DNA of 37,168 bases from Methanobacteriota archaeon (GTDB taxonomy: Archaea; Thermoplasmatota; Poseidoniia; Poseidoniales; Poseidoniaceae), in the NCBI GenBank assembly GCA_018701175.1, contig JABIWF010000079.1, positions 1 to 37,168 on the forward strand, given 5' to 3'. Shown here piece after piece: positions 2,411-21,649 of the stretch; position 1 is the stretch's first letter, and each line of letters begins with the position of its first letter. The notes under the pieces were generated by a model that made no database searches, was not told where the DNA came from, and was given only the letters and a program-made list of their open reading frames with translations. A program made the position numbers and the translations under genes.

Positions 2411-3298
2411 TCAAGCCACATCGCCTGATTTACTCCGTCGCTTTTGAGCTTGTATCAACATGTTCAACCACGTCGGTTTGCGAACATCTCCTTCCTCATT
2501 GACAAAGGATCGAACTGCTAACGACAGCAAGTCAATCAGTACAACGACGATGAAGATAAGAATCAACAGTGCGAAGACTTTGTCGTATTGAAGGAACTTT
2601 AGATACGTGTTGATGTAGTAACCAATTCCGCCTGCACCAACGATTCCTATAACGGTCCCGTGGCGTACATTGTACTCAAACATGAACATGATTTGACTGA
2701 GCAAATGGTTGCTGTTCTCGGGTATGACAATGTTGAATACAATACTTGAGCGACTCAAACCCATGGCTCGACCTGCTTCCAGCGGATCGTTTGGCATACC
2801 TTCAAACACTTCATATTGTAATTTACCAAGGTAACCGACCGTGTAGAACGTCATTGCCAATACGCCTGAAAGTGGGCCAAAGCCGATGACAATCACGAAC
2901 AAAATAGCCCAAATTAAACTAGGAAGGCTTCGAACTGCTGAAAGGAATATTCGAACTGGAAGCGAAATATACAGTGGCATCAAGTTTCGTGCAGCCAATG
3001 AAGAAAGGGAAATTGCTCCAACAAAACCGAGAATGGTCGAAACAAAAGCAATTTTTAGCGTTTCCATCATTCCAAGATAGCCAACTGAACAAAAGAATTC
3101 GATATCTTGTTCACACACTGGGTATGAGCGGGCTTCAAGAACCTTCCAATTTGGTGGCCACATGCTTTCTTCAAAGAAAACAACCAGGTTTGACAGGCCA
3201 CCCTCAAGTCGGCCCCAATCGCCTTCAACTAAACCGTCCAGCGTTTGCCACGCCAAGAAGAAAAGGATGAATACGATACCAAACAAACGGTATTTCAT
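2411..3298 (-). CDS. ABC transporter permease, PhnE-like; predicted to serve the adjacent transferrin-like binding protein
   Basis: Multiple TM segments and an EAA-type cytoplasmic loop 'EAGRAMGLSRSSIVFNIVIPE' with 'GIVGAGGIGYYI'. Overlaps the upstream ATPase gene by 4 nt. Confidence 0.88.
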   Translation of the reverse strand: MKYRLFGIVFILFFLAWQTLDGLVEGDWGRLEGGLSNLVVFFEESMWPPNWKVLEARSYPVCEQDIEFFCSVGYLGMMETLKIAFVSTILGFVGAISLSSLAARNLMPLYISLPVRIFLSAVRSLPSLIWAILFVIVIGFGPLSGVLAMTFYTVGYLGKLQYEVFEGMPNDPLEAGRAMGLSRSSIVFNIVIPENSNHLLSQIMFMFEYNVRHGTVIGIVGAGGIGYYINTYLKFLQYDKVFALLILIFIVVVLIDLLSLAVRSFVNEEGDVRKPTWLNMLIQAQKRRSKSGDVA

Positions 3299-4002
3299 TC
3301 CTCTTCCCCCAAATGTTGCTCCCGCCAGCTTGACTCATCTATATCCAGCCATTCTTCCAATGAGTAATCATGTAGATGATTATCCTTAATCAGCCAAATT
3401 CGAGTGGCGAAATCTTTGGCATTGTCTTCATGATGCTCAACCATGATCACTGCAGTTCCTTCCTCAACCAATTCATGAACTGCACTGAGGACAATGTCAA
3501 CGTTGGTTTGGTCAAGTTCGCCTAGGAATTCGTCCGCCAACATAAGCCGTGGACGTTGCGCCAGTGTGCGAGCTGTAGCAACCCTCCGTTGTTGTCCACC
3601 GGACAAGCGTCGAACTGGTTCCGAGGCCTTTTCCTCGATGCCAAGTGTACGAATAGCCTCGAACGTTCTTTCCTTTCGGTCTTTGAACATAGTTCTCGAC
3701 CAACCCACGCTCAAACGCGCCCCAAGAGACACATTGTGAGCGACGGTTGCATGACGAACAAGACCCAATCGTTGAGGGATGTATCCAAGCCCACCGCTTC
3801 GTTTGACTCGAAGGTCAAAGTCGCCATCAAGTGGGCGAACGAGTCCAGCAATGGTTCGAATCAGCGTCGTCTTTCCGATCCCAGAGGGTCCAAGGATAGC
3901 GATGATTTCTCCTTCATGAACATCAAGAGTAATCGGCTTCACCAGAGGCTGGTCATATCCGATGACCAAGCTGTTCAGAGACAGGATTGCATCTTCACTC
4001 AT
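3295..4002 (-). CDS. ABC transporter ATP-binding protein, PhnC-like
   Basis: Walker A 'GPSGIGKTT', signature 'LSGGQQRRVATARTLAQRP', Walker B 'LMLADEFLGELD'. Confidence 0.92.
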   Translation of the reverse strand: MSEDAILSLNSLVIGYDQPLVKPITLDVHEGEIIAILGPSGIGKTTLIRTIAGLVRPLDGDFDLRVKRSGGLGYIPQRLGLVRHATVAHNVSLGARLSVGWSRTMFKDRKERTFEAIRTLGIEEKASEPVRRLSGGQQRRVATARTLAQRPRLMLADEFLGELDQTNVDIVLSAVHELVEEGTAVIMVEHHEDNAKDFATRIWLIKDNHLHDYSLEEWLDIDESSWREQHLGEEE

Positions 4003-4195
4003 AGCATCCCCTCAAACGACCCTATGGCCGGGTCTTTTTGAAACGGTTGGCTATGGCCGTTCAAACATAGGTGTAAAAAACGGATATTACTCTGCATGTG
4101 AACGCCTCAAAGATGCCGACGAAGCAGCCCAAAACGGTTGGGTGAGGCGATTGGGGTGCTCCGCCGACGGTTTCAGTCAAGGAAGACTAACTGAA

Positions 4196-6310
4196 TTATT
4201 CTGTAATCTCATACTTTGAATCAAAGTATGTTGAAATGCCTGGTATGGCACTGATGAGACTGCTGTAGCTGCCGAGGTGTTCTTGCGAATTAACTTCAAC
4301 CAAACCACCTGTGTTCAACACATTCGACAGGATTTGATCGCCACAAGCCGATTGCGGCGAAGTCGAGTCTACTTGGTGAGTTACCATCGAGTAGCATCCG
4401 GTGTAGTTCTGTCCCTGCATAGGGTAATCTTCGACGTACATCTCAGTGTTCAATGCCAACATTGCGTTGAGTATTGCGGTTCGAGTCTGAACATCAAGTG
4501 TAGCTGGGTTGTACATCACTGGGTGAGAAGGTGCAGAACCGTAAGAAGGTAGCAAGATGTATTCAGATTCTGGAAGACACCACTCGGCATTCTCGCTTGC
4601 ATCATCCTTACCGCAGTATGAAGCTACAGTGGAATCCTTTGCAAAGGCGACATCGCCGACTCCTTCTGTCAAGCACTTCACTGCGCCGGAGTAGGAGTAG
4701 TAAGGAGTACCTGATTCTGGAATACTTGCATTTTCGTTGAAGAACGAAGTGATGGTGTCACGTAGTGATTCAATATCATCCTGTGGACCAACGACTGGAG
4801 CATATCCTTGGGAGATAAGGTGGCCCATTGGCAGAAGCATGCCAGCAGATTTGAGCCAACCGGTGTGGCACGAGGTCTTTCCTGCCATCATTGCAAACGG
4901 ATCTGTGGAATCATCGTCGTCCAAGTAGGCGTTCGCAATGTCTGAACCGTTGAGAACGACTGCATGTGCGTCGTAGTGCGTGCGGCCGTCAGATTTGAGG
5001 TCTGCAGCCATAGCCGCAAGGCCGTATTCTTTCCAACCAACCCACGCTGCGCCACCGTCCATGAAAGCGATGTCTGCATTACCAAAGCGAAGTGCTTCAA
5101 TGATGGCGCCTTCAGAAGTGACCGGGTATAGCGTTACTGTCACGCCAGTTTGTTCAGCGATGAAATCTGCTAGAACTTGTGGGTTCTCTGCTGGGTTTTC
5201 GTAATCGTCTTTCATTTCAAAAGCGATTCGAATGTTGGAGATTGTTGGGGTCACTGAATCATTGATTTCGAACTTGGTATCGTAGTATGCAGAAATACCA
5301 GGTACGTCTTCAATCAAGTTTCCATAGGATGCAAGGTGTTCTGTGGCAGTGGTAGCTGAAATTGCAGGTGTATTGAGAACATCACTGAGAATTGATTGAC
5401 CCTCGGTTGAATCCTTCATAGCCACGAGTGCGTTTTGTACGAGCGTCATTGTATCTGCATCGCTGGTTGCCGGGTTGTACATCACTGGGTGAGAAGGCGC
5501 ATTTCCGTACGAAGGCAACAAGATGTAATCGGATTCTGGCAAGCACCATGCTTCATTGGTTGTTGCATCCTCATTACCACAGTAAGAAGCGATGGTCGAA
5601 TCCTTTGCAAAGGCAACATCACCGACACCTTCGGAAAGGCACTTGACTGCACCACTGTAGGAGTAGTATGGAGTTCCGGAGTCTGGTATGCTAGCATCTT
5701 CGTTGAAGAAATTCGTGATGGTCGAGCGCAACGATTCCACATCGTTTGCGTCTCCAATGACGTTCGCATACCCGTTGCCAATAAGGAAGCCCATTGGCAG
5801 GAGCATACCGGCTGATTTGAGCCATCCTGTGTGACACGAAGTCTTTCCAGCCATCAAAGAAAATGGATCGGTGGAAGGGTCATCGTCAAGGTGGGCTGCT
5901 GCAATTTCTGAATCCTTCAAAACGACAGCATGAGCGCTGTAGTAAGTTCGTCCATCGGACTTTTGATCTGCTGCAATTGCATCGAGGCCGTATTGTTGCC
6001 AACCAACCCATGCTGCACCGCCATCCATGAAAGCGATGTCTGCATTTCCAAAGCGAAGAGCTTGTAGAGCAGCACCTTCAGAATCAATAGGATACAATGA
6101 AACATCCATATTGAGTTCTTCACTCATGTAATCTGCTAGACGTTGAGGATTTTCGTCGACGTTTGTGTAATCGTCTTTGATGCTGTATGCAATGACAAAG
6201 TCTTCTAAGTTGCTTTCTTCATTTTCGTCATCGCTACCTAAACAGCCTGCAAGTGATGCTGTGGCAATTAGGAATACAAGTATCGCGGATTTCAGTGTTC
6301 GCGTTTTCAT
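4196..6310 (-). CDS. Lipid-anchored, two-lobed transferrin-like (PhnD-related) ABC substrate-binding protein, predicted Fe(III) binding
   Basis: ORF 4196-6355 (719 aa). Likely true start is MKTRTLKS at 6310, followed by a signal peptide with lipobox 'LAGC'. Two near-identical lobes (about aa 52-366 and 371-719), each with 'FMDGGAAW', 'R-T-Y/H-Y-x-AHAVV', 'GKTSCHTGWLKSAGMLLPMG', 'YYSYSGAVKCLxEGVGDVAFAKDST' and 'APSHPVMYN'. These align with transferrin 'LDAG/LDGG', 'YYAVAVV', '[20 protein letters not shown]', '[22 protein letters not shown]' and 'VPSHTVV' (transferrin sequence recalled from memory). Confidence 0.85.
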   Translation of the reverse strand: MKTRTLKSAILVFLIATASLAGCLGSDDENEESNLEDFVIAYSIKDDYTNVDENPQRLADYMSEELNMDVSLYPIDSEGAALQALRFGNADIAFMDGGAAWVGWQQYGLDAIAADQKSDGRTYYSAHAVVLKDSEIAAAHLDDDPSTDPFSLMAGKTSCHTGWLKSAGMLLPMGFLIGNGYANVIGDANDVESLRSTITNFFNEDASIPDSGTPYYSYSGAVKCLSEGVGDVAFAKDSTIASYCGNEDATTNEAWCLPESDYILLPSYGNAPSHPVMYNPATSDADTMTLVQNALVAMKDSTEGQSILSDVLNTPAISATTATEHLASYGNLIEDVPGISAYYDTKFEINDSVTPTISNIRIAFEMKDDYENPAENPQVLADFIAEQTGVTVTLYPVTSEGAIIEALRFGNADIAFMDGGAAWVGWKEYGLAAMAADLKSDGRTHYDAHAVVLNGSDIANAYLDDDDSTDPFAMMAGKTSCHTGWLKSAGMLLPMGHLISQGYAPVVGPQDDIESLRDTITSFFNENASIPESGTPYYSYSGAVKCLTEGVGDVAFAKDSTVASYCGKDDASENAEWCLPESEYILLPSYGSAPSHPVMYNPATLDVQTRTAILNAMLALNTEMYVEDYPMQGQNYTGCYSMVTHQVDSTSPQSACGDQILSNVLNTGGLVEVNSQEHLGSYSSLISAIPGISTYFDSKYEITE

Positions 6311-6325
6311 GTTATGACCTACCGG

Positions 6326-6341
6326 TTTAGGCCGCCCTAAA
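6326..6341 (-). promoter_or_regulatory. Putative DtxR/IdeR-like metal-regulator operator, copy 1
   Basis: Plus strand TTTAGGCCGCCCTAAA (minus TTTAGGGCGGCCTAAA); perfect inverted repeat TTTAGG-N4-CCTAAA located 16-31 nt upstream of the ATG at 6310. Confidence 0.65.
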
Positions 6342-6350
6342 AACCTGATG

Positions 6351-6358
6351 TACATAAA
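6351..6358 (-). promoter_or_regulatory. Candidate TATA-like box (minus strand TTTATGTA) between the two operators
   Basis: AT-rich element about 40 nt upstream of the ATG at 6310, with operator copies on both sides. Confidence 0.35.
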
Positions 6359-6360
6359 GA

Positions 6361-6376
6361 TTTAGGCCACCCTAAA
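6361..6376 (-). promoter_or_regulatory. Putative DtxR/IdeR-like metal-regulator operator, copy 2
   Basis: Plus strand TTTAGGCCACCCTAAA (minus TTTAGGGTGGCCTAAA); one base different from copy 1, spaced 35 bp start-to-start. Confidence 0.65.
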
Positions 6377-6419
6377 AATTGCCAAGGAGCTTGCAAGTTA
6401 CTGCCAAAGAGGCTACTGC

Positions 6420-11398: not shown

Positions 11399-12613
11399 AT
11401 GTTTACGGGTGTAATTGAGTCCAAAAGCCATGAAGGTGGTTTTCTTGTTTCATTCACCGGTTCATCACCGGCCTTGGAATCAATAATAATCAACGCTGAG
11501 ACCGGGATTTACATCGGTAAAGTCGATGGAGTCCTTGGAAATACCAACGCTCCACTCGCTCACGTGGCCCATATCGACCGAAAACTGGACCTCGATGCAC
11601 TCATCGGAGCGGAAGTAGGAATTCGTCCAAAAAAACAACGTGAAGAACGAAGCCGTGGCTCTGATAGAGACGGTCGAAGAGGAAACGACGGAGGATACCA
11701 GAGCAGAGACCGACAAGGTGGACGATTCGAACGAAACGACCGAGGCAACAGAGGCGACAACCGTAACGGTGGCGACTGGGATTGTCCAAAATGTCAAAAT
11801 TCTAACTTCGCCTTTAGAACCGAATGCAACCGATGCGGGGAACCTCGTGGCGGTGGAGGCCGTGGACGAAGCGATGACCGTCGAGGCGGTCGAGACGACC
11901 GTGGTAACCGGGGCGGTCGTGGTGGAGAAATCTACAATGACAACGATTGGGATTGTCCAAAGTGCCAAAATTCAAACTTCGCATTCCGATCCGAATGCAA
12001 CCGATGCGGTGAGCCTCGTGGCGGTGGAGGCCGTGGGCGAAGCGATGACCGCCGAGGTGGTCGTGACGACCGTGGCCGAGGCAACAGAGGCGGAGACCGT
12101 GGAGGATATCAGAGCCGCGACCGACAAGGTGGAAGGTTCGATCGAAACGACCGAGACAACAGAGGCGGCAACGAAGACCGACGTGATGGCGACTGGGATT
12201 GTCCAAAGTGTCAAAATTCAAACTTCGCATTCCGAACCGAATGCAACCGATGCGGCGCATCACGTGGCGGTGGCGGTGGCGGTGGCGGAGGCGGTAGCCG
12301 TGGACCTCGTGAGCACTCTCGAGATAGACCACAACGAAGCGACTCTGGAGGACGACCTCCCCGAAGAGATTCAGGAGACCGACCACCACGAAGAGAAGGC
12401 GACAGACCACCAAGAAGGGACGGTCGAGACCGACGTGAGGAACGTGGGCATCAAGACCGCGGATCATACAATCAAAATCGTTCACGAGGCGACGAGCGTC
12501 AACCAGAACGCAAATCCCGAGAGCCACGCACATTTCGCAAATCCCGAGGAAACGGCCCCGGCCATGCCCACAACCGACCTCCGAAACCATTGACTCGTGA
12601 TCGAGACGATTGA
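11399..12613 (+). CDS. gar1: Gar1-like H/ACA RNP-domain protein with RGG-rich tail and three RanBP2-type zinc fingers
   Basis: N-terminal 'GFLVSFTGSSPALESIIINAETGIYIGKVDGVLGNTNAPLAHVAHIDRKLDLDALIGAEVGI' resembles archaeal Gar1 ('GFLIVRTNWVPSLNDRVVDKRLQFVGIVKDVFGPVKMPYVAIKP...GEVLYV', recalled). Three copies of 'DWDCPKCQNSNFAFRxECNRCG' (CX2CX10CX2C) separated by RGG/DR-rich linkers. Confidence 0.8.
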   Translation: MFTGVIESKSHEGGFLVSFTGSSPALESIIINAETGIYIGKVDGVLGNTNAPLAHVAHIDRKLDLDALIGAEVGIRPKKQREERSRGSDRDGRRGNDGGYQSRDRQGGRFERNDRGNRGDNRNGGDWDCPKCQNSNFAFRTECNRCGEPRGGGGRGRSDDRRGGRDDRGNRGGRGGEIYNDNDWDCPKCQNSNFAFRSECNRCGEPRGGGGRGRSDDRRGGRDDRGRGNRGGDRGGYQSRDRQGGRFDRNDRDNRGGNEDRRDGDWDCPKCQNSNFAFRTECNRCGASRGGGGGGGGGGSRGPREHSRDRPQRSDSGGRPPRRDSGDRPPRREGDRPPRRDGRDRREERGHQDRGSYNQNRSRGDERQPERKSREPRTFRKSRGNGPGHAHNRPPKPLTRDRDD

Positions 12614-14826: not shown

Positions 14827-17800
14827 TCACTGCTGACTTTGCGCATACTGCATAGCATATTGCTGAGCATATGCTGCTGCGGTTTGGGCATCGTATCCTT
14901 GTGCGGTAAATTGCTGGTAATACTGCTCGTAAACTGCTTGATCCATAGCAGGGGCTGCCGCTGGAGCAGCGGCTGCCGGTGCGGCAGCAGCGGCTTGAGT
15001 CGAGTATTGTTGTGCATAAGCACGAGCAGTTTCCTCAGGATAACCTTGAGCAATCAGTTGCTGAACGTATTGTTCAGTCTGGTCGACAACGCCACCAAAG
15101 CCGCTATCGGTCATTGCAAAGTTCTTGACGTCATCTTCCCCGTTTCGACCAAGGAAGAACATGGTTCCAACAATAACCAGTAACAGTATGGCGCCAATCA
15201 TAATTGGGACTCCAAGGCCGCCAAGGGCGCTTTCAGACGAATCTTCTCCGCTGTCCGATTGAGGTTCAGACCAGTTGCCGTCGACGAGTGTCCAAGCACC
15301 GGACCATTCACATTCACCATCGATGAATACAAATTCGCCACCTGCTGCATCCGCTTCCGCAGGTGCTTCTAGACCTTGACACGCTGCCAATTGGAATTCC
15401 TGCCACTTGACAATCACGTGGCGTTCATCTGGTGCTTGTCCTTCGTAGATACGAATAAAGACACGCTGGCTAAGAGATTTGTTGGTGTAGAGTTCCTCAA
15501 GAGATAGAGTAAGGGAGAAGGTGTCTCCGTCACCCAAACCGCCTTCGGTCTTCGCCCATGTTTCGTCGTTCTTCATGTTGAACTTCTCAATAGCGCTTGC
15601 AGAGAAGCTGTCTTCCATGAATGCAATCTCGACATAAACATCGTTCTGAGATTCTGCACCCGAAAGAACTGTACCAGAGACGGTAATTGTTGGTGTAGTC
15701 ACTCGAGAGTTGTTGAGATCAAAGTTGATATCAACATCAGGTTCATCATCGCCGAAGTCGTTTGGAACGACCACGAAATACATTCTGTGCTTCTCAGAGA
15801 ATTTATCGGCGCCGTCGAAGACGACCAGTTCAATTCGGATTTCCGTGTTTGATGCACCGGTTGTGTCGGATGTCAGGTTGCGGAATGTGTAAGCAAACAA
15901 ACCGTCACTGGCGGCTGTTTCAATAAATTCGTGGCCTTCAATATCAAAGTCGTCATCACCGTATGGAGCGTCGAACAGAACCTTCCATTCGTAGCGTTCA
16001 ATGCCGTTTCCGTCGAGCGCATCCTCGTCTGAGGAGTTACCTGCATCGAAATACACGGTAACTTCACCGTTGTTCTCGTTCAATCGGATTTGGTGAACAT
16101 CCCATTCTTTCGATTGAATGGTGTTGGTTCCCAAGAATTCGATTTGCTCAGCATAATCATCTCGCATGTCGATTTCTGCATCTGCAGTTGGACGGAACGC
16201 ATCTGCATAGACATCGTTGGTTTCAACGGTGACTGTAATGACACGAGAGTGACCTTGGGCATCGTGAAGAATGAGGGTAATGTCCCATTGTTCGCCTTGT
16301 GTACATCCAGTAGCAGATGCGAGGTCGGTCTTACAGAACATCATCAACGGGTTGTTGTCCGTGGTGTGTGAAGTTCCGCTTGCCATGGTAGCACCAGTCC
16401 ATGATGTTGGTCCATCGATGATCCAGTCGGTGTTCAACGACTCAGTCGTATCAGATACAAAGGAGAAGGTTAGTTCTGCGTTGCTCTTGATGTAGTAATC
16501 CTTGTATCCGCCTGTGCTCGGGTCGTTATCAGGGATGATGCCGTTGATTTGCAAATCAAGCCCGTCTCCTAGGACACCAAAGCCTGTTGGGTAAGGTGTC
16601 ACTTGGTAACTGAGCATGTTACCGAGGAGAGGCAGTGTTGCACTGTCTGCACGCTCGGAATGGGTAGCAACGTCAATCGTCGAAACAATCAGTCCACCGG
16701 CTTGGTAACTGCAAACACCCAGGATAGTATCCTTTTGTTGTGCTTGAGTACCGTCTTGACGGATGATTCGTTGGAAAGTTCCGTCTTTCTTGGTTTCACT
16801 GTAACCGCCACAACGTTCTGGAACATTGTTTGCACTCTGGGAGTTCGTGTCCAAAACCGCCATTGCGACGGTCGAAGATGCATCGAATCCTTGGAACGCA
16901 GCCAAATCCACATTTTCCATGAGTGGATGGTATGGATCTGCAAAGTTTGTTTCAGCATAGGTGATTGGACTCTCTCCGAGGTTCTTGCTTTGGATGTTCA
17001 GTCCAAACGGAAGGCGCCCAGTTAGTCCTTGGTCAAGGCCGTAGACTTGACTGCCTTGAGGACCAAGGTGAGCCTGCACAGTTCCACCAGCATACATGAA
17101 GCCCTCAAGGGTGTTCTTGTTCGCTGTTGAACCCAACTTTTGATAGTAACCTCGGCCACCGTTTTCGATGTCCTTTGCAGCAATATCGGTTTGCCAAGGA
17201 AGCACAATCTTGTCGTAGTGCGTAAACCAACCGCTTAGGAAGTAAGTATCCCAGTCGTTGATGTCAAATTGTGTGTAGGTCATTCCAAGGATGTTTAAGT
17301 CTTCCTTAATCGCTGATGTGCGAGGGGAAGTATCCGAAAGAATAGCCACATCAACCGAGTCAGCAAAGGTTGCGTGGAAATAGCGAACGTTTCCGGACGG
17401 GTTTCCGTTTGCGAGTTCCGCATCAAAACTAATGTTGTACTTGTGTCCATCTTGCCATCCGTTCCACGGAGTGAAAGACACATCGATCAGTTGGTGCGAA
17501 TCGAGAGATTGTGCAGGACCTGCTGTTGTCGTGTGAGCTTGTGAACCATCGGTCATATCGAAGATGTTCATGTTGAACACATAGTCGCCTGCCAGAACAC
17601 CGTTGGTTGCCTTGATGGTCCAGTCGTGAGTAAGTGCGCTGTCGATTGGCATGACACATTCGAGTGTTTGGTCGTTTAGACAGTTCAGAGTGTTTGGCTT
17701 GCCCAGCGTAATGTCCACTGATTCAACGTTGAAGATTACAGTCTCGCGGTTATTCGAAACAGACACTTCGTTGTCATTGAACCATGCCTTACCTGCCGTT

Positions 17801-20800
17801 GTGTTGTCAAAAATAGTCTCGACGTCAATTTTGTAGACACCTGCAAAGAACTCGTGGCTGGCGATGAGGTCAGTAGACATCATGTCTGCGTCGATGTTCG
17901 TCTTGGAAATCGTGTAAGCGTTGTCTTCAATGAAGGTGAACTCTTGTAGAGAGATATTGTTGAAAGCAACTCCCTTGAACCCATCGTTGATTCCATTTCG
18001 GCCGTCATCATCGGATTGGAATTCAAAGTTGATATCAACCGTAGAACCAGCCAATGACATACATTCGAATGCCCAGTCCGAGGTGTCTGCGGAAGAGGTG
18101 TTGAGCGCATACAGGTGCGTCAAGTCGATGCTTGTAGTTGTAACAAGGTCATTTGTATTGAAGAACACATTGTAGTTCGTGCCGGAGCCATCGGTCGTTG
18201 CATCGTCTCCAATGTATGAAATCTCAGCGAAATCAATTGGTTCAGATTCGTTCACGATGTTATCGCCGTTTTCGTCAACTTGACACGTGCCATCTTCGTT
18301 GTAATCGTTCCATTGCCCCATAACGACGCTGCTGTATGTCGCACCGTCACGCAGGATGTCGAGGGTCATTGCTGCATAGTCATTGACATCGACGATGCTT
18401 GTCCCATCGGAATCAATACCGTAGAATGTATCTGCATAGTATTCGAAGTTTAGAGAGACGAAATCGCCGCCCATGGAAGTCAAATCAACACCTGGGATGG
18501 TCAGAGTTTCGTTTGCCCATGCGTCACCGTAGCCGTTCGAACCAGTATCACAAGGATGGCCAAACCAATAGCCGTGGTTGTTGAATATTTTCTCTTGACA
18601 ATTGTTTTCGTTGTAAACCGCACCTTGTGGGTTTTGGCTCTCTTCGTATCGATATCCGTCTGCACCGCCTTCGAATGTCTCTTCACACAGAGCACTCGGT
18701 GTACCACAGTAAATGTCTGAAGGGGTTGCCGAGTAAACAGTAGCCTTGACATCATAGTCAACTGCGGTGTTTCCGTAGTTGTTGGTAGCGACTTCAATGT
18801 CGAAGATTCCTTCCGCATACAATCCTCCAGGATTGAAGTATTCGAGGTTCTCGACCATTGGGTCGTAGAGGTTGAACGGAGTGATATATCCGATAATTTC
18901 GTCGTTTTGACTCTGTTCATCCCATGAATTTCCGGATAACACTGCAGAGATACGATACGTCGTATCGTTAAGGAGGTCAGCAGAAATCGAAGTGGTGAAT
19001 TCTTGACCTGGACCGAGATTATTCAGTGGAACATTGGCTTGTTGAACTTGTGGATTTGGTTGGAATGCTGTTGTTTGCTTCCAAATCGTTAGATTGTCGA
19101 CTGCATATCCATCGCGTCCTGACCACTCAGACTCGTTGTCGCTAGAAATTGAGCCTTCAAATCCAGTTCGCAATCGGAACCGGATATCAACGGTCTCACC
19201 AGCCCATGGGCTGAGATCGAATGCTCCGTCACCTTCTTCAGTGAAATTGTTCCAACCGTAGTATGTTCCAAAAGAGTATACACCGTAGTAGTAGATACCT
19301 TCAGGTGCGCCACCGATTGCTTGCTTGTACATGCGGTCCATATCGAATCCACCCCACATAGATTCGCCAGATGCACATGCTCCGGCGAGTTGTGCGCTTT
19401 GTGGGCAAGAAATTGTTGACCATCCAGTTTCAACGCTGCCGATTTCAATCATGGCAATGTCATCCCAGACATCACCAGCGAGGTAATTTCCGGATTGGTC
19501 GAGGCTTCCAAGGACTCCGTGGCCCAAGTGTCTGAACAGTTCAAGACTCATGAAAGCACGGTCTGAGCCTGTCAAGTCGACGTCTTCCAAGACCATTGCA
19601 TCGTCCCAATTGCGGCCATATCCGGACCATGTGTCTCCACTCGAATTGGTCTCGTAGTATCCAGCCCACATGAAGTCGGTCGGATTGTTGTAGTTTGCCG
19701 AAACGTTTGGATCATTGTTGTCGGATGTGCCACCAACTGAATTGTTGGTTTCTTCGTGCCACATCGTAGCTTGGTCGACGTATTCTTCGTAAGACCAAGT
19801 ACATCCGCTGCATGAAGCCTTGTTCTCCGGAGCATCCCAGTCCATCTCATAGACCGTCGTATTGGACGAATTTGGAGCGTCGACTATTTTGAGTTCGACA
19901 TCGAGAGTGGCTTGTTGACCGTTTAGAACATCCATGCCAGTGTTGGTCACTGTGACATTGATGTCGCGTGTTCCTTCGCCAACAATTCCATAGAATTTGT
20001 CAACAGGTGAGATCTCAATGGATGAAACGGACAAATCCTTGCTGTCCATTTCAATCACTGAAACGGTATCGTATTGACCATCCCATCCGAAATTGTCTCT
20101 CCAGCCACTGAAACGCCAGTTAGCGTGGCCGATAACCAAGTCATCAGAAGAGCCACTGGAACCTGCAAGTTGGCCGACGTCAACAACGTTTGGCCTGCGA
20201 CCTGCAGCGTACGATAGCGGGCTAAGATGGCCACCGTTACCGTTTGAAAGAGTCACTTGAACCGTAGTTGGGAAGTTAAGGTAAAATGAGGAAGTTGAAC
20301 CGCCTGCAGAATCCGATGTGTTTTGTTGATAAGCGATTGTCGGGTTGATGAAATCGGGCTCTTGGTCGCCGTTGAGGTCAGCGATTGTGACCGACCACGA
20401 GATGTAAGGGCCAAAGTAGGCTAGTGAAGGTGAGGACCAAGTTCCAACAGCAGAAGAGGTAACGTAGGTTACATTCTCGAGATTGCTGTCCATCATTACA
20501 ATTGAATCAATAACATTGTCATCGTCCATGTCTCCAATATCGAAGTTTTCGGAAGTGCCGGTGTTCATGTTAATGACATGAGTGTTTGGTGGAGGGCTTG
20601 TTGCGCTGAATGTGAAGGTGGCAGGATAAGTGTTGGTTAGACAACTGAATTCAATGATGGTCATGTTATCGTCGTTTCCAGGGTTTGTGACCTGGCCGGT
20701 TCTGTAGTCAACACCTTCTGCACGTTGTAGCCACAAGTCATCATCCGTACAGGTACCTGAAAGGCCACCTGTTTCGGTTTCTCCCCAGTCGCCGACTTCC

Positions 20801-21492
20801 AAGTTCTGGTATCTGTCTGATGTGGAGGAACCAAGCGAAGTGACTGTACCTTGTGTGTTGCTCGTGATTGGACCACGGTATGTGACCACACGTTGTGTAG
20901 CCAAGTCACCGAGCAGATCGAGAACAAAAATATCATCATTACCGTCTTGGTCTGCGTCACCCACTGTCAAATCCCAAGCGTAGAAGTGAGTGAAACGAGC
21001 GCCAATGCTCCATGATTTTTCGTTGCAACCACCGTTTTCAATGATGGTTACGTTTCCGGGGTCGCCTGCTGGTGCTCCATTGTCATCGGTCTTGAATGGA
21101 TTGTTGCGCTGATAGATGACAATGTCTGTTGCAGTGTCGCCAGTGAACTCACCGACTTCAATAAATTGAACATTGGAAAATTCGTCCCACTCGGCGTTAC
21201 GGCTGGTGTTCTTAGAGACCCAAACGTCTTGGCGCTCGCTAAAATCACCGTTTCCATCGTTCCATAGGATACTGATGGTGTGGGTTCCGTCGGTCGCCAT
21301 TGCCAAATCATTGTGTCCATCGCAGTTGAAGTCGCCAATAGCAACATCATGAGGGTCACGGTTTGTCGTGTATGAACGAGCCATGGACGCACTCGCTGTT
21401 GAAGCGATGGCAGCTGTGGTCGAAAGTAACATCAGCATGACAAGGAACATGCTTAGGGCGCGGCTCTTGAGGTGGTGGTTCTTGGGAATCAT
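14827..21492 (-). CDS. Giant surface protein (about 2220 aa): FG-GAP-like repeats, CARDB/PKD-like regions, C-terminal TM and Gln/Ala-rich cytoplasmic tail
   Basis: ORF 14827-21585; likely start MIPKNHHLKSRALSM at 21492, followed by a signal peptide. 'DPHDVAIGDFNCDGHNDLAMA', 'VGDADQDGNDDIFVLDLLGD', 'IADLNGDQEPDFI' FG-GAP-type motifs; C-terminal 'IMIGAILLLVIVGTMFFLGRNGEDD' TM. Confidence 0.85.
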   Translation of the reverse strand: MIPKNHHLKSRALSMFLVMLMLLSTTAAIASTASASMARSYTTNRDPHDVAIGDFNCDGHNDLAMATDGTHTISILWNDGNGDFSERQDVWVSKNTSRNAEWDEFSNVQFIEVGEFTGDTATDIVIYQRNNPFKTDDNGAPAGDPGNVTIIENGGCNEKSWSIGARFTHFYAWDLTVGDADQDGNDDIFVLDLLGDLATQRVVTYRGPITSNTQGTVTSLGSSTSDRYQNLEVGDWGETETGGLSGTCTDDDLWLQRAEGVDYRTGQVTNPGNDDNMTIIEFSCLTNTYPATFTFSATSPPPNTHVINMNTGTSENFDIGDMDDDNVIDSIVMMDSNLENVTYVTSSAVGTWSSPSLAYFGPYISWSVTIADLNGDQEPDFINPTIAYQQNTSDSAGGSTSSFYLNFPTTVQVTLSNGNGGHLSPLSYAAGRRPNVVDVGQLAGSSGSSDDLVIGHANWRFSGWRDNFGWDGQYDTVSVIEMDSKDLSVSSIEISPVDKFYGIVGEGTRDINVTVTNTGMDVLNGQQATLDVELKIVDAPNSSNTTVYEMDWDAPENKASCSGCTWSYEEYVDQATMWHEETNNSVGGTSDNNDPNVSANYNNPTDFMWAGYYETNSSGDTWSGYGRNWDDAMVLEDVDLTGSDRAFMSLELFRHLGHGVLGSLDQSGNYLAGDVWDDIAMIEIGSVETGWSTISCPQSAQLAGACASGESMWGGFDMDRMYKQAIGGAPEGIYYYGVYSFGTYYGWNNFTEEGDGAFDLSPWAGETVDIRFRLRTGFEGSISSDNESEWSGRDGYAVDNLTIWKQTTAFQPNPQVQQANVPLNNLGPGQEFTTSISADLLNDTTYRISAVLSGNSWDEQSQNDEIIGYITPFNLYDPMVENLEYFNPGGLYAEGIFDIEVATNNYGNTAVDYDVKATVYSATPSDIYCGTPSALCEETFEGGADGYRYEESQNPQGAVYNENNCQEKIFNNHGYWFGHPCDTGSNGYGDAWANETLTIPGVDLTSMGGDFVSLNFEYYADTFYGIDSDGTSIVDVNDYAAMTLDILRDGATYSSVVMGQWNDYNEDGTCQVDENGDNIVNESEPIDFAEISYIGDDATTDGSGTNYNVFFNTNDLVTTTSIDLTHLYALNTSSADTSDWAFECMSLAGSTVDINFEFQSDDDGRNGINDGFKGVAFNNISLQEFTFIEDNAYTISKTNIDADMMSTDLIASHEFFAGVYKIDVETIFDNTTAGKAWFNDNEVSVSNNRETVIFNVESVDITLGKPNTLNCLNDQTLECVMPIDSALTHDWTIKATNGVLAGDYVFNMNIFDMTDGSQAHTTTAGPAQSLDSHQLIDVSFTPWNGWQDGHKYNISFDAELANGNPSGNVRYFHATFADSVDVAILSDTSPRTSAIKEDLNILGMTYTQFDINDWDTYFLSGWFTHYDKIVLPWQTDIAAKDIENGGRGYYQKLGSTANKNTLEGFMYAGGTVQAHLGPQGSQVYGLDQGLTGRLPFGLNIQSKNLGESPITYAETNFADPYHPLMENVDLAAFQGFDASSTVAMAVLDTNSQSANNVPERCGGYSETKKDGTFQRIIRQDGTQAQQKDTILGVCSYQAGGLIVSTIDVATHSERADSATLPLLGNMLSYQVTPYPTGFGVLGDGLDLQINGIIPDNDPSTGGYKDYYIKSNAELTFSFVSDTTESLNTDWIIDGPTSWTGATMASGTSHTTDNNPLMMFCKTDLASATGCTQGEQWDITLILHDAQGHSRVITVTVETNDVYADAFRPTADAEIDMRDDYAEQIEFLGTNTIQSKEWDVHQIRLNENNGEVTVYFDAGNSSDEDALDGNGIERYEWKVLFDAPYGDDDFDIEGHEFIETAASDGLFAYTFRNLTSDTTGASNTEIRIELVVFDGADKFSEKHRMYFVVVPNDFGDDEPDVDINFDLNNSRVTTPTITVSGTVLSGAESQNDVYVEIAFMEDSFSASAIEKFNMKNDETWAKTEGGLGDGDTFSLTLSLEELYTNKSLSQRVFIRIYEGQAPDERHVIVKWQEFQLAACQGLEAPAEADAAGGEFVFIDGECEWSGAWTLVDGNWSEPQSDSGEDSSESALGGLGVPIMIGAILLLVIVGTMFFLGRNGEDDVKNFAMTDSGFGGVVDQTEQYVQQLIAQGYPEETARAYAQQYSTQAAAAAPAAAAPAAAPAMDQAVYEQYYQQFTAQGYDAQTAAAYAQQYAMQYAQSQQ

Positions 21493-21649
21493 CAACATCA
21501 CTAACCTTATCCAACCCCTGTTGCACTTTAATTCCTTTGCTTTCAAGTTCTCAAATGAAAACACCAAAAAGACCCGCAGTAACACGAATAGTGGTTTAGA
21601 AAACCGAAGGAAATAATTTCGGGAAAACGGCAGATCGTTTCAGGCGTTT

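Follow-up and report, generated by a model that had tools for sequence, protein, structure and literature searches.

The Fe(III) site of transferrins consists of an Asp-Tyr-Tyr-His set that includes two tyrosine ligands. The eukaryotic members of the family (PF00405: serotransferrin, lactoferrin, melanotransferrin) share four iron ligands, an anion-site threonine, a core cysteine pair and a two-lobed arrangement with the archaeal protein described here. The latter, however, is a lipoprotein paired with an ABC importer, has a lysine in place of the anion-site arginine, and appears to have duplicated its lobe separately from the animal proteins. The PhnCDE and PtxABC importers belong to the same permease and substrate-binding protein (SBP) superfamilies as the archaeal cassette, which differs from them in its SBP site, its PhnC score, its iron-type control and in that no phosphonate catabolism was found in the genomes searched. 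Fe(III) ABC importers of the Fbp/Fut type have the same inferred function, in which an SBP passes Fe(III) to an ABC importer. The known Fbp/Fut SBPs belong to another branch of SBPs and use another set of ligands. A further comparison is offered by Fea1/phytotransferrin of algae, since these archaea have Fea1-family lipoproteins, also iron-related surface proteins, whose genes lie under the same operator box as the cassette. Diatom phytotransferrin has been described as convergently evolved (PMC7972479). The product name in use at NCBI, "PhnD/SsuA/transferrin family substrate-binding protein," indicates that annotators are aware of the link between PhnD and transferrin.

Marine Group II (MGII) archaea are among the commonest archaea of the surface ocean and, to our knowledge, have no cultured isolate. 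The window analyzed here is a contig of 37,168 nucleotides (JABIWF010000079.1, assembly GCA_018701175.1) from a Candidatus Poseidoniaceae (Marine Group IIa) archaeon. Its minus strand carries a cassette of three genes. The first in transcription order (4196–6310) encodes a two-lobed transferrin-like substrate-binding lipoprotein, recognized by Pfam, lobe alignment and a PDB profile search. It is followed, after a gap of 193 nt (4003–4195), by a PhnC-like ATPase (3295–4002, 235 aa, ABC_tran) and a PhnE-type permease (2411–3298, 295 aa, BPD_transp_1), whose reading frames overlap by 4 nt (3295–3298). This is the arrangement that the sequence-only reading had described, with the two transporter genes directly downstream of the transferrin-like gene. 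The start of the SBP was set at M16 of a 719-aa reading frame, because the upstream extension crosses an operator and M16 is followed by the lipobox ATASLAGC.

Comparison with NCBIfam models gives a divided picture. The permease passes the PhnE cut-off (TIGR01097, 224.7 vs. 216.7 bits), whereas the ATPase falls far below that of the PhnC equivalog (TIGR02315, 127.1 vs. 266.1) and the SBP below that of PhnD (69.3 vs. 261.1). In Pfam the SBP scores 148.5 bits for Transferrin (cut-off 20.3), a profile without a match in 14 control genomes, and 144.5 bits for Phosphonate-bd (cut-off 27). The permease score and the Phosphonate-bd match would suit a PhnCDE-type importer of phosphonate, phosphite or phosphate, in line with the annotation of the cassette, and "transport of phosphonates" is listed in the published MGII core genome (Tully, 2019; PMC6336850). 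The large shortfalls of the PhnC and PhnD models speak against such an importer, as do the searches for C-P lyase and phosphonatase: the C-P lyase gene PhnJ occurs in 0 of 116 Poseidoniales genomes, the window genome included, and phosphonatase passes its cut-off in 0 of 60 genomes. The sequence-only reading had noted the absence of C-P lyase and other phosphonate genes nearby, and no phosphonate gene was found among the window genes examined.

The two lobes of the SBP occupy 5201–6220 (lobe 1) and 4199–5200 (lobe 2) and are 69% identical. Counted from M16, the relevant residues are D96, Y124, T161, K165, Y218, and H274 with Cys159/Cys224 in lobe 1, and D418, Y446, T483, K487, Y540, and H596 with Cys481/Cys546 in lobe 2. 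In a joint alignment both lobes place Asp-Tyr-Tyr-His at the transferrin ligand positions and retain the anion-site threonine, with lysine at the position of the transferrin arginine, an exchange that may lessen carbonate binding. The core cysteine pair, a predicted disulfide that we take to correspond to Cys115/Cys198 (lactoferrin numbering) or Cys118-Cys194 (serotransferrin), is invariant across 34 aligned lobes from relatives. Nearly all archaeal lobes contain the Asp/Glu-Tyr-Tyr-His residues, the threonine and the cysteine pair, with glutamate for aspartate in some and glycine for the anion-site lysine in a few. The same alignment shows that this combination is absent as a set from PhnD and PtxB; Escherichia coli PhnD and PtxB have the first tyrosine alone in common with the transferrin site, so that the SBP differs from them at most positions, a further argument against the PhnCDE-type importer. 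The residue table can recognize a degenerate lobe, as it registers the loss of the aspartate and of the anion-site Thr/Arg in the C-lobe of melanotransferrin.

A PDB profile search with the 34-lobe alignment returned transferrin-family proteins for all of its best 60 matches, the first being melanotransferrin (1.4e-47), and the alignments span the ligand positions. Lobe 1 modeled alone reaches a pLDDT of 91.8 and a pTM of 0.84. Its fold neighbors are a mixture of transferrin lobes, PtxB, which is a phosphite protein, and AioX, a sensor of arsenic oxyanions; although the last two could be counted in favor of the PhnCDE-type importer, the mixture is expected if all three belong to one superfamily. 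The full two-lobe model is moderate (pLDDT 71.5, pTM 0.52) and was kept out of the evidence. At one related locus the two-lobed SBP is present twice in tandem, and lobe 2 of the second copy (L047:8498-10591) has lost most iron ligands.

The order SBP-PhnC-PhnE is conserved in about 20 syntenic loci of related genomes and is thus not due to chance. Transferrin matches occur in 113 of 390 genomes of the phylum, and strong PhnE matches, always in single copy, in 76 of 293. Co-conservation of the genes, proposed earlier as a check, is borne out by the 72 of these 76 genomes that also have a Transferrin match; the four exceptions comprise two genomes with PhnD-like SBPs (G109, G117) and two with PhnE at contig ends (G070, G330). 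The receptor had been read as a tethered protein with two sites, which agrees with the two lobes in the window species but not with the many relatives whose SBP at this locus has one lobe. The SBP gene lies apart from PhnCE in several genomes, as might be expected if the lipoprotein buffered or sensed iron while PhnCE imported something unrelated. Given the close linkage in most genomes, the co-occurrence in 72 of 76 and the presence of an operator box directly before PhnC in six related loci, we give that proposal almost no credence.

In the permease tree every transferrin-linked permease falls into one clade (30 rows, support 93/87), which leaves out E. coli PhnE, the phosphite permease PtxC and arsenic-linked PhnE. 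Its sister rows accompany PhnD-like SBPs that miss most of the transferrin site. The suggestion that a permease clade might track transferrin-like SBPs is therefore upheld, and the converse pairing, of this clade with genuine phosphonate SBPs or phn catabolic genes, was looked for and not found. With bona fide PhnE and PtxC so far outside the clade, and with the iron-type operators and box partners described below, we regard import of phosphonate, phosphite or phosphate as very unlikely. The transferrin-type cassette is instead the probable source of the phosphonate-transport call in MGII, and this published trait is put in question.

Two TTTAGG-N4-CCTAAA palindromes, both exact matches to TTTAGGNNNNCCTAAA, lie just upstream of the SBP gene (6326–6341 and 6361–6376) with a TATA-like stretch between them; none would be expected in the window. 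They are the only two sites in the whole 1.9-Mb genome, and a relative assembled as one contig (G011) likewise has two, both at its SBP gene. A relaxed search of the window (2 mismatches) added chance-level matches to the two exact sites; we therefore assign no box to PhnC in the window, and the intergenic gap in front of it contains none. The box upstream of the SBP is conserved in relatives. Across 40 genomes it occurs at 66 sites, against 12 for a reversed-pattern control (totals summed by hand from the per-genome table, the 66 then checked by script). A script with hand-entered positions shows that 35 of the 66 either accompany the SBP or immediately precede PhnC. In 24 of the 26 transferrin-positive genomes with sites, a box is found at the SBP; in one of the two exceptions (G052) the SBP is split over contig ends and the box lies at the other piece.

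The TTTAGGNNNNCCTAAA box includes the 14-mer TTAGGNNNNCCTAA, which a structural study of IdeR (PMC8464063) proposed as the consensus for DtxR/IdeR regulators that depend on iron. DtxR-family proteins are encoded in 58 of 60 genomes. The window genome has one on contig C117 (L180:2537-3220) in addition to the TTAGGNNNNCCTAA operator, the two features by which a DtxR/IdeR iron regulon was judged. Two class-level relatives have a DtxR-family gene (confirmed by Pfam in one) divergent beside the SBP with boxes between the two genes. A DtxR-family protein is the candidate binder of the boxes as judged from sequence, though a manganese-type relative of DtxR might exert the control instead. A search of a collection of freely accessible papers found no description of a transferrin in MGII; new here are the TTTAGGNNNNCCTAAA operators upstream of the SBP and the set of genes that share the box across the order.

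This set consists largely of iron-related genes. The box stands before flavodoxin, before lipoproteins of the Fea1 family ("low iron-inducible periplasmic protein"), and before ferrochelatase and a 4Fe-4S ferredoxin. It also precedes SufC-like and Nfu-like genes that were assigned by eye from sequence; Pfam reports a plain ABC ATPase for one of these candidates and nothing for the other. In one genome (G047) a pair of boxes precedes a Fea1 lipoprotein gene heading a same-strand run of genes, the heme-type importer operon described below, that ends in PhnCE. A few sites precede genes without an evident link to iron (e.g., L209, L212, L139). Fea1-family lipoproteins were seen right behind a box at L177:5212-7068, L179:4732-5883, L128:1781-3442, L152:8875-10110, and L213:929-2203.

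In four Poseidoniales genomes (G001, G206, G165, and G183, at loci L210, L216, L219, and L221) the box lies beside the iron permease FTR1 and the transferrin cassette is missing. FTR1 is present in 10 of 116 genomes, none of which has a Transferrin match, vs. 19 of the 20 listed FTR1-negative genomes (p = 4e-7 on the listed rows). The cassette has the behavior of an iron importer under iron control, and FTR1 takes its place where it is missing. FeoB was found in none of 60 genomes. FecCD was considered as the main iron route and rejected, being over its cut-off in 7 of 60 genomes and absent from the window genome.

Some other loci point to a possible cargo other than Fe(III) bound in the manner of transferrin, be it an iron chelate or another metal such as manganese. 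Beyond Thermoplasmatota a relative of the cassette was seen on one plasmid, from Natronococcus occultus (NC_019976.1; L153:4309-7687), where a DtxR-family regulator, whose best NCBIfam match is the MntR model (under cut-off), adjoins a transferrin-like SBP, PhnC and PhnE; the SBP reading frame is broken as deposited. On a Roseovarius plasmid (NZ_CP030100.1; L164:722-5579), mntR and a cytochrome c peroxidase gene lie beside a PhnD-like SBP, an ATPase and PhnE, a PhnCDE-like set for which a metal may be the cargo. In four genomes (G047, G027, G032, and G060) PhnCE forms the end of a heme-type importer operon with FecCD, a FecE-type ATPase, a HugZ-like protein and a Peripla_BP_2 SBP, accompanied in three of the four by flavodoxin; these genes were assigned by domain searches in the first three genomes and recognized from sequence in G060. 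The heme-type operon, however, has its own SBP and permease for that cargo, the Asp-Tyr-Tyr-His set with two tyrosines is the transferrin Fe(III) site, and the box partners (flavodoxin, Fea1, ferrochelatase, FTR1) are iron genes. Another metal or a chelate is accordingly an improbable cargo.

The cassette is most likely an iron importer and not a phosphonate transporter, since agreement is found among the gene arrangement, the binding-site residues, the pairing of SBP and permease across genomes and in the permease tree, the operators with their partner genes and the exclusion of FTR1. The Fe(III)-importer role first proposed gains support, at the level of sequence, from the iron-type boxes, their partners and the mutual exclusion with FTR1. 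Counted against it are the passed PhnE cut-off, a Phosphonate-bd score as high as that for Transferrin, the lysine for arginine, and the SBP and PhnCE genes unlinked in some genomes. Under the proposed scheme, the membrane-tethered lipoprotein would capture Fe(III) in two transferrin-type lobes, with (bi)carbonate probably held beside it by the threonine and lysine, and would hand the metal to the PhnE-branch permease, powered by the PhnC-like ATPase. When bound to Fe(II), a regulator of the DtxR/IdeR family would shut off transcription from the SBP promoter region (6311–6419), with one TTTAGG-N4-CCTAAA operator on either side of the promoter. We infer that the cargo is Fe(III), that carbonate serves as the anion and that the SBP delivers to this permease; the scheme as a whole, an iron-repressed Fe(III) ABC importer with a transferrin-type SBP and DtxR/IdeR-type control, we hold to be very probable. 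It names a candidate iron importer and regulon for Marine Group II.

The origin of transferrin is an old question, for which the archaeal SBP offers a testable prokaryotic counterpart. The SBP tree separates archaeal SBPs and transferrins from PhnD (100/100) and groups the animal lobes together (100/99) and the archaeal lobes together (88/66); it includes five vertebrate lobes taken from alignment output, some of them partial, and does not settle the ancestry. As the animal and archaeal lobes group apart, the two-lobed forms look independent. The phylum-level outgroups G109 and G117 and the Roseovarius cassette have Tyr-Tyr-His without the aspartate or the CHTG loop, and from these residues their SBPs are apparent intermediates. 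It is conceivable, and we put it forward tentatively, that the transferrin iron site arose within a prokaryotic PhnD-type importer and that the cassette survives as a relative of the system that gave rise to animal transferrins. The steps would lead from a PhnD-like anion binder through Tyr-Tyr-His to the Asp-Tyr-Tyr-His archaeal SBP and on to transferrin, with two-lobed forms appearing separately in archaea and animals.

Two further genes of the window are worth noting. The first (11399–12613) specifies three repeated CxxC...CxxC zinc-ribbon-like units joined by Gly/Arg-rich linkers, and the second (14827–21585) a secreted-looking surface protein of 2252 aa that has a membrane stretch close to its C-terminus and a tail rich in Gln and Ala.
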